This document shows, one piece after another, positions 17,161 to 63,857 of a stretch of 64,000 nucleotides of DNA (its first letter is position 1; each line of letters opens with the position of its first letter). The stretch spans positions 600,001 through 664,000 of the forward strand of contig NZ_CP119082.1 in assembly GCF_029027965.1 (NCBI RefSeq). Direction: 5' to 3'. The position numbers and the translations under genes are program-made. This DNA is from Paracoccus sp. S3-43 (GTDB lineage: Bacteria > Pseudomonadota > Alphaproteobacteria > Rhodobacterales > Rhodobacteraceae). Below the pieces are notes generated by a model that had not been told where the DNA came from, ran no database searches, and was given only the letters and a program-made list of their open reading frames with translations.

Positions 17161-18846
17161 TTAGAAAAGGAAATAGCGTTGGGCCATCGGCAGTTCCGTC
17201 GCAGGCTCGCAGGTCAGCAGTTCTCCATCGGCGCGGACCTCGTAGGTCTCGGGATCGACCTCGATCGCGGGCATGGCGGCGTTCAGAACCATGTCGGATT
17301 TGCCGATATTCCGGGTGTTTTCGACGGCGACCAGGGTCTTGTTCAGGCCGTCCCCCGCGCCGTCTTCCAGCCCCGCCTTCGAGACGAACAGCGCCGAGGC
17401 GCGGCCGGTATGGCCCCACATCGGGCGCGAGAAGATCGGCTGGACGGGGATCGAGCCGTTCGGATCGCCCATCTGCGCCACGCTGATCTGGCCGCCGACC
17501 AGCACCATTTCCGGCTTGACGCCGAAGAAGGCGGGCGACCACAGGACCAGGTCGGCGCGCTTGCCGGGGGTGACGCTGCCGATATGGGCGCTGACGCCAT
17601 GGGCGATGGCCGGGTTGATGGTGTATTTCGCGATGTATCGCCGGGCGCGCAGGTTGTCGTTTTCTCCTTGTTCATCGGGCAACCGGCCCCGCTGGCGGCG
17701 CATCTTGTGGGCCGTCTGCCAGGTGCGGATGATGACCTCTCCGATCCGGCCCATCGCCTGGCTGTCCGAGGAAATCACCGAAAACGCGCCCAGGTCGTGC
17801 AGGATATCCTCGGCCGCGATGGTTTCCCGCCGGATGCGCGATTCGGCGAAGGCCACATCCTCGGGGACGCGCCGGTCGAGATGGTGGCACACCATCAGCA
17901 TGTCGAGATGTTCCTCGATGGTGTTGCCGGTATAGGGGCGGGTCGGGTTGGTCGATGAGGGCAGCACGTTCGCCATGCCGACCATGCGGATGATGTCGGG
18001 GGCATGGCCGCCGCCCGCGCCCTCGGTGTGATAGGCGTGGATGGTGCGGCCGGCGATGGCGGCCATCGTGTCCTCGACGAAACCGGATTCGTTCAGCGTG
18101 TCGGTATGGATCATCACCTGCACGTCCATCGCGTCGGCCACGGTCAGGCAGCAGTCGATGGCGGCGGGGGTGGTGCCCCAGTCCTCGTGCAGCTTCAGCG
18201 CGCAGGCACCGGCGCGGACCTGTTCCAGCAGCGCCTCGGGGCGCGAGGCATTGCCCTTGCCCGCGATGCCGATGTTGACGGGCAGGTCCGCGCAGGCCTC
18301 CATCATCCGGGCGATGTGCCAGGGGCCGGGGGTGCAGGTGGTGGCCAGCGTCCCATGCGCGGGGCCGGTGCCGCCGCCCAGCAGCGTGGTGACGCCGGAA
18401 TGGATCGCATGGTCCACCTGCTGCGGGCAGATGTAATGGATATGGCAGTCGAAGCCGCCGGGGGTGAGGATGCGCCCCTCGCCGGCGATGATCTCGGTCC
18501 CCGGTCCGATGACAAGGGTGACGCCGGGTTGCGTATCGGGATTGCCCGCCTTGCCGATGCCGGCGATGCGGCCGTCGCGAAGGCCCACATCGGCCTTGGT
18601 GATCCCCTGATGGTCGAAGACCACGACGCCGGTGATTACGGTATCCATGGCCCCGTCCGCGCGCGTCGCCTGCGACTGGCCCATGCCGTCGCGGACGACC
18701 TTGCCGCCGCCGAACTTCACCTCTTCGCCGGGGATGGTCAGGTCGCGCTCGACCTCGATCAGCAATTCGGTATCGGCCAGGCGGATGCGGTCGCCGGTGG
18801 TCGGGCCGTAAAGGGCGGCATAGTCGGCGCGGGAGAGTTGGGTCAT
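17161..18846 (-). CDS. ureC: Urease alpha subunit UreC (catalytic)
   Basis: Catalytic subunit: hydrolyses urea to ammonia and carbamate at a dinuclear nickel site. 561 residues (family ~567-570). Nickel ligands HIH at about 135-137, the carbamylated lysine in ALKLHEDWG (Lys about 218), further ligand His in [11 protein letters not shown], and flap residues in [13 protein letters not shown] (about 320). The N-terminus [16 protein letters not shown] is canonical. Unusually for an urease operon, 130 bases separate ureB from ureC. Confidence 0.98.
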
Positions 18847-24648: not shown

Positions 24649-24705
24649 GGGCGGACCGGGGCGCTGCCCCCAGCCTGCCGGCGGGGCGGCAGGCGTTCGT
24701 CGCTG

Positions 24706-24728
24706 AAAAAGGTCCACCGGACCTTTTT
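24706..24728. terminator. Perfect hairpin between fabD and fabG (bidirectional terminator-like)
   Basis: AAAAAGGTCC (24706-24715), 3-base loop ACC, GGACCTTTTT (24719-24728): a perfect 10-bp stem with A-run and T-run arms, so it could terminate on either strand. It is the left half of the dispersed element that continues to 24772. Confidence 0.75.
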
Positions 24729-24772
24729 CCGGGCGCTTCTCACCCCCGAGGATACTTGGATGAAAAAGAAGG
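24729..24772 (+). repeat. Dispersed intergenic element, copy A (tail part)
   Basis: After the hairpin at 24706-24728 comes CCCCCGAGGATACTTG (24743-24758) and the A/G-rich tail GATGAAAAAGAAGG ending at 24772. The tail's AAGGA is at proper distance to be the ribosome binding site of fabG. Other copies are at 28522, 44489, 50302, 54471 and 63797. Confidence 0.75.
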
Positions 24773-24779
24773 ATCAGCC

Positions 24780-28253: not shown

Positions 28254-28499
28254 ATGACGCAATACGTGATCCCGGAAAACTCGCTGTCCACCGAACAGAG
28301 CGCGGCGGAACTGAAGCTGCCGCCGCCCGAGACGCAGATCGTCACCCGATGGAAGGTCGCCTGCGAGGGCAACGATGCTGCGGGCATGGGCCATCCGCGC
28401 GTCTGGCTGGCGATCTCGCCGGAAACCGGCTTCGTCGATTGCGGCTATTGCGACAAGCGCTTCGTGATCGACCGCGACCGCGCCCACGGCGACCATTAG
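28254..28499 (+). CDS. Zinc-finger domain protein (zf-CHCC, NDUFS6-like)
   Basis: 81-residue protein with the CHCC zinc-finger pattern of the mitochondrial complex I subunit NDUFS6: Cys in VACEGND, His in [10 protein letters not shown], then CGYCDKRFV near the C-terminus. Bacterial members are found across alphaproteobacteria and are often annotated only as zinc-finger domain proteins; an accessory role in complex I is plausible but not shown here. AAGAAGG ribosome binding site 8 bases before the ATG. Divergent from the ABC ATPase gene. Confidence 0.88.
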
Positions 28500-28521
28500 G
28501 CGCCGTTTCTCTGTTCACCTG

Positions 28522-28565
28522 TGTGAAAATATCCTCGGGGGGTCCGGGGGGCGAAGCGCCCCCGG
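28522..28565 (-). repeat. Dispersed intergenic element, copy C
   Basis: On the minus strand: hairpin (arms GGGGGCG-type, 28544-28565, loop of 3), then GGACCCCCCGAGGATATTTTCACACAG in shortened tail form. Lies in the 138-base gap between the zinc-finger gene and polA, pointing against both. Confidence 0.75.
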
Positions 28566-43370: not shown

Positions 43371-43390
43371 GCTTTTCACTTTGGCCCAAA
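43371..43390 (-). repeat. Half copy (tail) of the dispersed element beside the IS remnant
   Basis: Minus strand reads TTTGGGCCAAAGTGAAAAGC, matching the TTTGGCCCAAAGTGAAGG tail of the copy at 63797. The part expected before it (CCCGAGGATA) is replaced by transposase sequence from 43391 on, marking the left break point. Confidence 0.65.
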
Positions 43391-44466
43391 CCTGCGCGGC
43401 ATCGTGCATGACCGGCGGCTGATGCGAGAGGCGCAGGTCAATCTCGCGATCCGCGGGTTCATCGGTTACGGGCTTCACGAGGCGCTGCCGGACCATTCCT
43501 CCTTGACGCGCATCCGGCAGCGTTGGGGCGAGGCGGTGTTCCGCACCGTCTTCACCCGCGTCATGCAGCAGTGTCAGGCGACTGGACTGGTGACGGCCGA
43601 GACGGTGCATGTCGACGCCAGCCTGATCCGGGCCGATGCCAGCATGGACGCACTGGTCGCGCGCCATCTCGATGCGCTCGAGGATACCAACGACGCCGAG
43701 CGAGAGGCGCGCGCAAGCGGCAAGTTCAAGAAGCTCTGCCCAGCTCGGCAATGGTTGACCTTGCGGGCGTCATGGTCGATGTCGAGATCGTCACCGGCGA
43801 GGAGCACGACACGGGCCGGTTCGAGGAGCGCTTGAACGCCATCGAAAATGTCCTCGGTGGTTTCCCCGGGCCGGATCACGGCGGACAGGATCCCTGGCGT
43901 GGGCCGGGTTTACGCCGCCCTTGAAGACCGCCAGATCGACGCCGTCATCCCGCCTCTTCGTGCCCCCGCCGCAAGGGGGCGCAGGGCTTTCCGACCGAGC
44001 GGTTCACGTTCGATCCCCAGCATGATGGGGTCCGGTGTCCGACGAGGAGGCGGCTGACCGCGAGAAACGTCACCAAAGCCGGGCAATGGTGTCGTGCAGA
44101 TCGTCGCGACTGCGCAGGCTGTCCTCTCAAGGCACAGTGCTTGCCGAAGGGCGCCCCTTCCCGCCGGGTGCATAGGGTGACAACCATGCGGCCATCCTGC
44201 GCGCCCGGCGCAAACGCTTGGCATCGGGCGAGGATGACCATGCGATCTACACCCGGCATCGCTGGCGCGTCGAAGGCGCGCACGGCACCGCCAAGACGCT
44301 CAACGGATTGGACAGAGCCATTCGACGCGGCCTCGACAACATGAAAATCCAGGCCCTGCTCACCGCCGTCGCCATGAACCTCAAGAAGCTAGCCGCTGCG
44401 GTCCTTCCCGTCGTCGGCCTGCCCTTCCAGGCCAGCGCCATGCGAGAGCCACAGGCAACCCTCTGA
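43391..44466 (+). pseudogene. IS1182-family transposase, truncated with several frameshifts
   Basis: DDE transposase of the DUF772/DDE_Tnp_1_6 type. Readable pieces: 43391-~43745 ([46 protein letters not shown]), ~43751-43860 in another frame ([14 protein letters not shown]), ~43860-44000 in a third (GVGRVYAALEDRQIDAVIPP), and 44218-44466 (YTRHRWRVEGAHGTAKTLNGL, MKIQALLTAVAMNLKKLAAA). DNA between KFKKLC and VDLAGV (about 43740-43755) is also missing compared with relatives. At least three frame changes make it inactive. Confidence 0.88.
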
Positions 44467-44488
44467 TCGAGGTTCTTCAAACAGCCCC
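43391..44488 (+). mobile_element. Decayed IS1182-family insertion sequence
   Basis: About 1.1 kb of a transposase-bearing IS that has lost its left end and first ~60 codons. The right terminal repeat is recognisable at 44473-44488 (reverse complement GGGGCTGTTTGAAGAA), a typical end for this group. No matching left repeat is found near 43391, so the left end was removed by a deletion. Flanking 4-bp-type target duplications cannot be identified for the same reason. Confidence 0.8.
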
Positions 44489-44549
44489 CACCGAACCTTT
44501 TCCCCGGCCCGTCTCACCCCCCGAGGATATTTGAACCAAGGCAAAGGGG
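44489..44549 (+). repeat. Dispersed intergenic element, copy B (left arm cut by the IS)
   Basis: CACCGAACCTTTTCC then CCCCCCGAGGATATTTG (44517-44533) and AACCAAGGCAAAGG tail. The first 26 bases align with the right hairpin arm of copy A (ACCGGACCTTTTTCC), but the left arm is absent: the IS right end adjoins directly at 44488. Confidence 0.7.
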
Positions 44550-44568
44550 GAGAAAGGGTGATTCCCGG

Positions 44569-50273: not shown

Positions 50274-50301
50274 ACCGCCTGCGCGGGCTGCGCGGGCAGG
50301 A

Positions 50302-50336
50302 GCCTCCGGCGGGGATATTTGCGTGAAGAAGAAGCG
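50302..50336 (+). repeat. Dispersed intergenic element, copy D
   Basis: GCCTCCGGCGGGGATATTTG then CGTGAAGAAGAAG. A variant core (GGCGGGGATATTTG for CGAGGATATTTG) with the typical A/G tail. It fills the gap between convergent mnmH and punA. Confidence 0.7.
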
Positions 50337-54468: not shown

Positions 54469-56115
54469 TCAGGATACTCGGGGGGTCTGGGGGTCTTCTG
54501 AAAGGTGCCGGGCGGGGGCGATCCCGTCCTGCGGCGGGGCGGCGGCCGGATCGATTCCCGCCATCAGCAGGCCCAGCTCGCCCGTGGTGGCCTGGCCGGG
54601 CAGGCGTTCGCCCATGATGCGCCCGTCGAACATCACGGCGATGCGGTCCGACAGGGACAGGATCTCGTCCAGTTCGACCGAGACCAGCAGGATCGCCTTG
54701 CCCGCGTCGCGCAGGTCCACGATGCGCTTGTGGATGAATTCGATCGCGCCGATGTCCACGCCGCGCGTGGGCTGGCCGATCAGCAGCAGGTCGGGATTAT
54801 GCTCGATCTCTCGGGCGACGACGATCTTTTGCTGGTTGCCGCCGGAAAAGTTCCGCGCGGCCAGGTCGCAGGTCGGCGGGCGCACGTCGAAGCGCGCGAT
54901 CTTGCCCTGAGCATCGCGGCGAATCGCGTCGCGGTCCATCAGCAGGCTGCGCCCGTATTCCGGCGCGTCGTGATAGCCGAAGGCGATGTTTTCCCAGGCG
55001 GCGAAATCCATGATCAGCCCCTCGGCCTGCCGGTCCTCGGGGATGTGTCCGATGCCCCGGTGGCGGCGCTCGGCGGCGTTGCAGGCGCCGCCCGACAGGG
55101 GCAGGGGGGCGCCGTTTATGCGGATCTCGCCCGACAGGCGGCTGCCCTTTTCCGGGTAGCCGCCCAGGATTTCCAGAAGCTGCGTCTGGCCGTTGCCGCT
55201 GACGCCCGCGATCCCCAGGATCTCGCCCGCGCGGATCTCCATGTCGATGCCGCGCAGACGCTCCACCCCGGCCGCATCGACCAGGCGCAGGTTGCGGATT
55301 TCCAGCACCGGGGCGCCAGGCGTCGCCGGGGCCTTCTGGACGTTCAGCAGCACCTTGCGCCCGACCATCAGTTCGGCCAGTTCCTCGGGGCTGGTGTCCG
55401 CCGTCTTGACCGAGGCCACCATCTCGCCCCGCCGCATGACCGACACGCTGTCGGTGATCGCCATGATCTCGCGCAGCTTGTGGGTGATCAGGATGATCGT
55501 CTTGCCCTCGGCCCGCAGGCTTTCCAGGATGCGGAACAGGTGGTCGGCCTCGGCCGGGGTCAGCACGCCGGTCGGTTCGTCCAGGATCAGGATGTCGGCC
55601 TGGCGATACAGCGCCTTGAGGATCTCGACGCGCTGCTGGTGGCCGACAGACAGGTTCTCGACCCTCTCGTCGGGATCGACGTTCAACTCGTATTCCTGCG
55701 CCAGCCGTTTCAGCACGCCGCGCGCCTTGGCCAGCGAGGGGCGCAGCAGCCGCCCGTCCTCGGCCCCCAGGATGATGTTTTCCAGCACGGTGAAATTCGG
55801 GACCAGCTTGAAATGCTGGAAGACCATGCCGATGCCCGCGCGGATCGCGGTCTGGCTATCGGCGATGGTCAGGGCGCGGCCACCCACCAGGATTTCGCCG
55901 CTGTCGGGCTTGTAGAATCCATACAGGATCGACATCAGCGTCGATTTGCCCGCGCCGTTCTCGCCGATGATGCCGTGGATCGTGCCGCGTTCGACGCGCA
56001 GGTCGATGTCGCGGTTGGCCTGAACCGGCCCGAAAGCCTTGGAGATGCCGCGCAGTTCGATCGCCGCAGGGGCGGCCGTTTCCAGCCGCCCCCGTGGTTC
56101 CACCGTCGCCGCCAT
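54469..56115 (-). CDS. Nucleoside ABC transporter ATP-binding protein (double ATPase, NupO/BmpA-system type)
   Basis: 548 residues with two ATPase cassettes, as in sugar/nucleoside importers. First: Walker [15 protein letters not shown] (about 52-65), signature LSVGHQQRVEILKAL, Walker B DILILDEPTGVLT. Second: degenerate P-loop GVSGNGQTQLLEIL (about 288-301), signature FSGGNQQKIVVAREI, LLLIGQPTRGVD (Q for E in Walker B end). Such an inactive second site is normal here. C-terminal eight residues derive from the intergenic element. One base after the binding protein gene. Confidence 0.92.
   Translation of the reverse strand: MAATVEPRGRLETAAPAAIELRGISKAFGPVQANRDIDLRVERGTIHGIIGENGAGKSTLMSILYGFYKPDSGEILVGGRALTIADSQTAIRAGIGMVFQHFKLVPNFTVLENIILGAEDGRLLRPSLAKARGVLKRLAQEYELNVDPDERVENLSVGHQQRVEILKALYRQADILILDEPTGVLTPAEADHLFRILESLRAEGKTIILITHKLREIMAITDSVSVMRRGEMVASVKTADTSPEELAELMVGRKVLLNVQKAPATPGAPVLEIRNLRLVDAAGVERLRGIDMEIRAGEILGIAGVSGNGQTQLLEILGGYPEKGSRLSGEIRINGAPLPLSGGACNAAERRHRGIGHIPEDRQAEGLIMDFAAWENIAFGYHDAPEYGRSLLMDRDAIRRDAQGKIARFDVRPPTCDLAARNFSGGNQQKIVVAREIEHNPDLLLIGQPTRGVDIGAIEFIHKRIVDLRDAGKAILLVSVELDEILSLSDRIAVMFDGRIMGERLPGQATTGELGLLMAGIDPAAAPPQDGIAPARHLSEDPQTPRVS
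54471..54497 (-). repeat. Dispersed intergenic element, copy F (read as coding DNA)
   Basis: Minus strand GACCCCCAGACCCCCCGAGTATCCTGA. This core (CCCCCCGAGTATCC for CCCCCCGAGGATAT) encodes the last eight residues of the ATPase (DPQTPRVS) and its stop codon. Confidence 0.6.
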
Positions 56116-63796: not shown

Positions 63797-63849
63797 CCGG
63801 GGGTTTCACACCCCCGGACCCCCGTGGGATATTTGGCCCAAAGTGAAGG
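63797..63849 (+). repeat. Dispersed intergenic element, copy E
   Basis: Perfect 7-bp hairpin CCGGGGG (63797-63803), loop TTTCACA, CCCCCGG (63811-63817), then ACCCCCGTGGGATATTTGG and tail CCCAAAGTGAAGG. Fills the gap between the EVE gene and DUF4170, in the orientation opposite to those genes. Confidence 0.75.
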
Positions 63850-63857
63850 GGCGGCCG

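Follow-up and report, generated by a model that had tools for sequence, protein, structure and literature searches.

Rhizobial intergenic mosaic elements (RIME and related) are known from Alphaproteobacteria as palindromic modules, variously combined and located between genes, and the repeat described here resembles them, at the level of description, in its combinable palindromic modules. A further likeness is offered by REPs (palindromic units) and BIMEs, with their GTAG and CGTC super-families: as far as the available passages of PMC3733652 describe them, they share with our element an intergenic location at gene 3' ends, a copy number of about 100 and a hairpin in most copies, and both are found between convergent and tandem genes, rarely between divergent ones; inverted pairs, of which our element has some, may be a further likeness. 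According to the same passages, REPs between convergent genes mostly lie within 20 bp of both gene ends and unidirectional ones near the upstream gene, and CGTC repeats lack a dedicated transposase (PMC3733652). Unlike in REPs, what is conserved in our element is not a palindrome but a motif of some 20 bp that stands beside the hairpin, the hairpin itself being exchangeable or missing, and the GTAG and CGTC tags are scarce or missing: among the 85 copies that have a stem, GTAG lies within 6 bases of the hairpin twice, CGTC never, and TGTC and CCTC twice each. A RAYT/Y1 transposase, as expected for GTAG-type REPs, was likewise missing, PF01797 being matched in none of 15 genomes. Intrinsic (Rho-independent) terminators also present a GC hairpin after the stop codon; our element, by contrast, continues after its hairpin with a C-run where they have a T-run, adds a fixed motif and a tail further downstream, and is nearly free in orientation. 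Paracoccus, Rhodobacter and Roseobacter are not mentioned in the main text of PMC3733652, and the available passages of that paper and of PMC12306157, PMC2267715, PMC6238624 and PMC7866481 contain no such element, nor do those of the R. sphaeroides RNase E and PNPase literature contain such a motif. No description of the element was found in searches of open-licence PubMed Central papers, covered mostly at the level of titles; subscription papers may hold an earlier one.

In Paracoccus sp. S3-43 the element is a short gene-end motif with about 100 genome copies, most of them carrying a hairpin, located close to the 3' ends of genes. Read from the gene-end side, it opens with at least one GC hairpin; after a short spacer come a C-run and a variable triplet, then the core GGATATTT, about 5 nt, and an A/G-rich tail. 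The bipartite motif proper consists of GGATATTT or GAGTATTT, then a few free bases, then the A/G tail, which occurs in few types (GTGAAGAAGAAG, CCAAGGCAAAG, CCAAAGTGAAG, CCAAGATGAAG and CACAGAAGA). An unmasked position-weight-matrix iteration drifted into coding sequence, and gene calling with a regular expression, followed by the sequence-only model R1, was used instead. Gene positions are those of a home-made gene caller that works without database annotation (471 genes in 464 kb). Because R1 was trained on 44 home copies, the scores it assigns to home copies are circular. Scanned over the 3.22-Mb genome, it retrieved at least 102 copies at E ≤ 0.01 and at least 112 at E ≤ 1; the figure of 102 is a minimum, since 150 of the 1111 candidates from the first look were scored. 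A count independent of R1 gave 35 exact occurrences of GAGGATATTT genome-wide against none for the reversed control; one (L008) among the 30 exact copies inspected is coding sequence. When a 464-kb sample was interrogated with a regular expression composed after copies had been seen, matches occurred in 15 of 253 intergenic stretches, in none of the reversed sequences and twice inside genes, and the element was present at 16 of 215 gene ends. Density along the chromosome is uneven, with 39 copies in 0-2.0 Mb and 63 in 2.0-3.2 Mb (p 7e-7), which makes the final 1.2 Mb about 2.6 times as dense as the rest; intergenic stretches are, in the sample, about equally frequent in both zones despite this difference.

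Five copies, all with E ≤ 2.4e-7, were reported by R1 in the 64-kb stretch of DNA analysed here (the window): 24742-24774 (+), 28510-28546 (-), 44515-44550 (+), 50305-50336 (+) and 63815-63854 (+). An earlier sequence-only reading of the window had claimed a dispersed layout of hairpin, CCCCCGAGGATATTTG and A/G tail, and this first observation holds in the main and is partly confirmed. The succession of hairpin, C-run, GGATATTT and A/G tail recurs beside genes in both orientations, in the five window copies as in the 102 of the genome, and conservation of the copies extends beyond the 10 bases by which that reading had proposed to test the element. The core is commoner than its reversed control in the exact genome-wide counts, and near-core matches in the window exceed chance, CCCCGAGGATATTTG with up to three mismatches matching eight times against 1.1 expected; three of the eight (32620, 43845 and 63083) are without element anatomy. 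Several particulars required amendment. All five copies reported by R1 had been listed, together with 54471-54497, which has no R1 match, lies at a gene joint and is no copy; "half a copy" at 43371-43390 proved to be a remnant reduced to the tail; a hairpin, ascribed to every copy, is present in three of the window copies and not cleanly so in 44515-44550 and 50305-50336; and the stated absence from genes applies to all but two of the 102 copies, these two lying in genes predicted by the home-made caller.

Within the window, the junction 24649-24779 contains the copy at 24706-24772 and separates two genes that we take, by our own reading, to be fabD-like (end 24648) and fabG-like (start 24780). 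It holds three hairpins as we read the sequence: two directly 3' of the fabD-like gene at 24658-24670 and 24673-24694 (+), and a third, GAAAAAGGTCC / GGACCTTTTTC, at 24705-24729 (+), a repeated module placed in the H5 family by hairpin sorting. The C-run and core CCCCCGAGGATACTT identified by R1 follow at 24743-24757 (+), and the A/G-rich tail at 24758-24773 (+) overlaps what is likely the ribosome-binding site of the fabG-like gene. An H5-type module, GAAAAAGGTCC..GGACCTTTTTC, stands beside the elements at genome positions 624742, 2217814, 2374133, 2660850 and 3111892, and beside others. The reverse-oriented copy has its hairpin, of the H2 family, at 28544-28565 (-), and its core and tail at 28510-28546 (-; R1), with the core GAGGATATTT at 28527-28536 and a distance of 27 nt between the tail side and the stop codon at 28499. 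At the convergent junction 50274-50336 the copy 50305-50336 (+; R1) comprises the core GGGGATATTT (50311-50320) and tail GTGAAGAAGAAG, with no clean hairpin. The last copy, reverse relative to both flanking genes, has an H1-family hairpin, CCGGGGGTTTCACACCCCCGG, at 63797-63817 (+), and its core TGGGATATTT (63825-63834) and tail CCCAAAGTGAAG within 63815-63854 (+; R1).

The remaining copy, 44515-44550 (+; R1), consists of a core (44523-44532) and tail with no clean hairpin, 3' of a decayed plus-strand transposase gene. Beside the same gene, at 43371-43390 (-), lies the remnant, a tail-like TTTGGGCCAAAGTGAAAAGC with neither core nor hairpin, not reported by R1. The decayed gene (43391-44475, +), apparently without a start, is preceded by a tail-only remnant and followed by a core-and-tail copy; an element may have been split here by an insertion or a deletion. 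A search of the window against Rfam produced no family match at the gathering score at any of the five copies. The sole match in the window, to 5_ureB_sRNA (54.6 bits; 18408-18697, +), lies opposite a long minus-strand reading frame at 17161-18846 and may reflect coding similarity, not an RNA.

By gene context, the 102 copies include 38 between convergent genes, 37 in tandem-forward position (hairpin towards the upstream gene), 22 in tandem-reverse position (tail towards the upstream gene), three between divergent genes and two in predicted genes. The resulting ratio of 38:59:3 (convergent:tandem:divergent) for the 100 intergenic copies departs from the 38:161:54 found for background junctions of at least 25 bp in the 464-kb sample (chi-square p 7e-12). 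One copy counted as divergent, at genome position 644515, actually lies, by our own reading, 3' of the decayed plus-strand transposase gene. A small unbiased sample shows no class pattern, the element occurring at 3 of 38 convergent, 10 of 161 tandem and 2 of 54 divergent junctions, so that the convergent excess rests on the genome-wide set. Orientation across copies is nearly free, and the reverse-tandem copies adjoin genes closely: in 20 of these 22, a gap of 14-30 nt separates the tail side from the stop codon before it. Tail-to-tail pairs also occur, three among the 102 home copies and further ones at the loci L040, L054, L179, L187 and L362.

The hairpin is a regular companion of the core side. 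Within 50 bases, a perfect stem of at least 6 bp was found on that side in 83 of 102 copies, as compared with 10 of 102 on the tail side and with 30 of 155 gene ends that lack the element and served as controls (core side versus such gene ends, Fisher p 1e-23); extending the span to 60 bases gave a stem in 85 copies, and 51 of these stems end 8-11 bases before GATATTT. Hairpins and tails were then assigned to families by hand-made patterns; among the 102 copies, 39 hairpins and 8 tails were classed as "other". With this sorting, hairpin family is linked to the bases just before GATATTT (mutual information 1.19 bits, against a maximum of 0.70 in 2000 shuffles), and the tail is independent both of hairpin family (p 0.58) and of core variant (p 0.57). 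The element is thus a mosaic: since the tail assorts without regard to hairpin or core variant, GATATTT marks a joint between two freely assorting modules. The hairpin leads into a C-run, not a T-run, and in the reverse direction the first 8 bases contain a mean of 1.5-2.5 T, a weak T-run at most. A crude test of the home sample placed a conventional hairpin-plus-T pattern at 18 of 215 gene ends, hardly more than at gene starts (11 of 255); such ends without the element include the 3' sides of two tRNA-Ser genes and of one of two rRNA operons, the other operon having a hairpin without a T-run.

Comparison with congeners revealed that many copies are conserved in place. We analysed 55 loci of other genomes (54 Paracoccus and one, L088, labelled Frigidibacter), all picked for core or core-tail matches, two of which (L044 and L120) are one place present twice. 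A neighbour gene is shared with a home element by 21 of 38 elements, and both neighbours by 17. Counted by junctions, both neighbours of a home element junction recur at 18 of 38 element-bearing non-divergent junctions versus 3 of 87 non-divergent junctions without an element; with L088 and L120 left out the figures are 18 of 37 versus 3 of 81 (p 1.6e-8), the 18 matching 13 distinct home junctions. The divergent junctions that match a home element junction on both sides number 0 of 35 without and 1 of 4 with an element. Shared junctions often differ in their hairpin and in the type of tail; three different tails, for example, are found in L041, L089 and home element 915907. Tail-to-tail pairs stand in the relatives at L040 and L054, where the home genome keeps the reverse member only. 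A clean reversal between home and relative was therefore seen once, at L086: its main copy and that of home element 3090608 face opposite ways, and beside the home copy we discern a degraded tail facing in the opposite direction. Two element junctions proved informative when the entire window was compared with five relatives. At the junction of the 28510-28546 copy, the motif is present in G496 and G534 and absent in G523 and G507.

The fabD-fabG junction could be followed more widely. Among the 30 best-scoring Paracoccus loci of 61 genomes, 29 were resolvable (G485 was not), and by our own reading 26 of these carry the motif, the exceptions being G514, G520 and G493; in seven of the 26 (G487, G494, G496, G507, G509, G523 and G535) the hairpin is missing. 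G534 has only the first of the three home hairpins and lacks the H5 module. In the rest of the family, the 29 best-scoring loci of 149 genomes, one of them (G311) of the home genus, yielded 17 resolved junctions; the motif was present at three of those from other genera (G298, G327 and G422), and the rest had unrelated hairpins or nothing. The contrast of 26 of 29 within the genus and 3 of 17 in other genera indicates an element largely held within the genus and gained or lost between genera. The tail at this junction is probably also the ribosome-binding site of the fabG-like gene, a role that alone could explain part of the retention. At the corresponding junctions of G425 and G354, both of other genera, we noted unrelated A/T-rich palindromes of the AAAAGTTTT...AAAACTTTT type, perhaps another gene-end repeat family.

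Variants of the motif extend through the family, in agreement with the kindred strings that the sequence-only reading had mentioned for other Rhodobacteraceae. The core with one tail type retrieved 19 stretches, labelled as 16 Paracoccus and one each of Frigidibacter, Cypionkella and Croceicoccus. Matches to CCCCGAGKATATTT were found in 91 of 198 family genomes, with a single match in total for the reversed control, and matches to TATTTN{4,6}AAGANGAA in 112 of 149, of which 50 have at least 10 (largest control total, 8). Among the places listed, those tail positions that are free agree within a genome and differ from one genome to another, as in G418 (CCAAGATGAA) and G397 (GCAAGA[TG]GAA); this specificity is to be read with the search pattern fixing most of the tail and the home genome itself having several tail types. 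Outside the family, CCCCGAGN{0,2}TATTT stays at background (at most 4, versus 28 at home), and GAGTATTTN{3,6}AAGANGAA gave one match each in 7 of 240 genomes of the class, about as many as the reversed control, in a test that is weak because its three family genomes gave no match either. Bare GAGGATATTT exceeds the reversed control in some outside genomes (16 versus 1 in G006, 9 versus 0 in G007); the combination of a C-run before it and a home-type A/G tail behind was present at none of 11 such places inspected. Viral contigs contain few copies (11 and 17 stretches). An upstream stem of at least 6 bp accompanies 6 of 32 copies in G418 and is missing from 26. In that genome (L357-L376 and L172-L200 in steps of four), many copies are embedded, by our own reading, in a larger repeat that ends in the inverted sequences CTTGACCG/CGGTCAAG and has conserved flanks on either side; the whole resembles a small inverted-repeat element.

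We tentatively interpret these features as those of a REP-like boundary element at gene ends, a reading we regard as possible but short of probable, in which the motif would be a putative protein site on double-stranded DNA, the hairpin a helper, and the copies would be renewed by recombination. Under this proposal a putative protein would bind the bipartite motif on double-stranded DNA and, once bound, mark where a transcription unit ends, or block it there, whichever side transcription comes from; the adjoining hairpin, once transcribed, would help to stop polymerase or would protect or release the mRNA end; and recombination between copies, with GATATTT as the joint, would renew elements, so that hairpin and tail change as the position stays. 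Binding, blocking and this route of exchange are steps that we infer. The free orientation of the copies hints at a protein site, one of the options of the sequence-only reading, and as the motif keeps its sequence and place yet apparently works in both directions, recognition on double-stranded DNA appears the best explanation; recognition as RNA is disfavoured because it would need one fixed strand, and the two tandem classes show none. Several observations count against a boundary of this kind: the fabD-fabG copies stand between genes that are probably co-transcribed, with a tail that is probably also the ribosome-binding site, and are present at only 3 of 17 resolved junctions of other genera; the tandem copies lean forward, 37 versus 22 (p 0.067); a clean turn at a shared junction was seen once, beside a degraded opposite-facing tail at home; the small sample does not show the convergent excess, and only 16 of its 215 gene ends have the element; and copy density is uneven. 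The main rival, which we rate as equally possible, is a REP-like repeat that spreads or once spread by some enzyme or by gene conversion, whose hairpin would protect mRNA 3' ends either way, whose motif would be a copying mark, and for which gene ends would simply be places that tolerate insertions. It explains placement as well as a boundary does, published REPs being placed in the same way in the available passages of PMC3733652, and it explains better the gain and loss at fabD-fabG between genera. The recurring hairpin families and mosaic structure, the tail-to-tail pairs, the extra hairpins of the home fabD-fabG junction relative to G534, and the G418 copies with common longer flanks ending, by our reading, in CTTGACCG and CGGTCAAG all favour it too. 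Spreading of this sort is opposed by the missing Y1 transposase (PF01797 in 0 of 15 genomes, with 5 of 14 control genomes positive) and by the conservation of copies in place, and it leaves unexplained the hairpinless motifs at fixed places (seven species at fabD-fabG; 26 of 32 copies in G418). The suggestion in the sequence-only reading that these are mobile small repeats accordingly stands as regards their REP-like placement and is weakened by the missing RAYT and by the many copies fixed in place between species.

That reading, whose interpretations are partly supported, had also considered terminators, for which location at gene 3' ends is suitable and the lack of a T-run after the hairpin and the nearly free orientation are not. 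In its elaborated form, a strand-specific terminator or mRNA-processing signal running from hairpin to tail, whose reverse copies would end antisense transcripts heading into the preceding gene, this explanation seems to us rather unlikely. The forward lean of the tandem copies would suit it, as would tail-to-tail pairs, which would provide one element for each facing direction, and the core UAUUU, AU-rich within a GC-rich RNA; RNase E sites of R. sphaeroides are AU-enriched in the available passages of PMC6238624. The wobble pairs of the hairpins, a test of pairing at the RNA level, bear on both sides: on the forward strand G-T outnumbers A-C by 13:1 at home (p 0.002), but control gene ends give 27:13, the excess is gone in other genomes (13:11; 15:7 in a mixed count including duplicates), and several of the home cases are not in the main hairpin. 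The C-run that takes the place of a T-run and the 22 reverse-tandem copies, equally tight to the stop codon, further oppose any such strand-bound signal. Genome-specific tails, so far as the search pattern leaves them free, would accord with a mark by which DNA is recognised as the cell's own, for example an uptake or packaging sequence that varies by genus. Known uptake sequences occur in genes too; only two of the 102 copies here do so, the copies number only about 100, and their position is conserved, all of which renders such a mark highly improbable. Least credible of all is a role as promoter or ribosome-binding region, to which one might be led by the fabD-fabG copy alone, whose tail overlaps the likely Shine-Dalgarno sequence of the fabG-like gene: the tail points at the end of an opposing gene in 60 of 100 intergenic copies, which contradicts this function for the family as a whole and leaves it possible at single loci.

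In GC-rich Alphaproteobacteria, the ends of transcription units seem little mapped. Against this background, the element constitutes a repeat whose conserved part lies outside the hairpin, and it may be a boundary mark between genes. As a gene-end motif that varies across the family and exchanges its parts, yet keeps its position among species of one genus, it is directly testable. Reb1 and TTF-I are eukaryotic sequence-specific roadblock terminators, and our element would be like them in proposed logic only, a DNA-bound protein, here putative, marking the end of the transcript. More specifically, and in a form that we consider doubtful, it might represent a dedicated gene-end signal of Rhodobacteraceae, read by a protein on double-stranded DNA: a site of about 20 bp with genus-specific variants, acting in either direction, co-evolving with its putative binding protein and collecting exchangeable hairpins. 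If this is true, the signal in Rhodobacteraceae would be a bacterial counterpart of roadblock termination.
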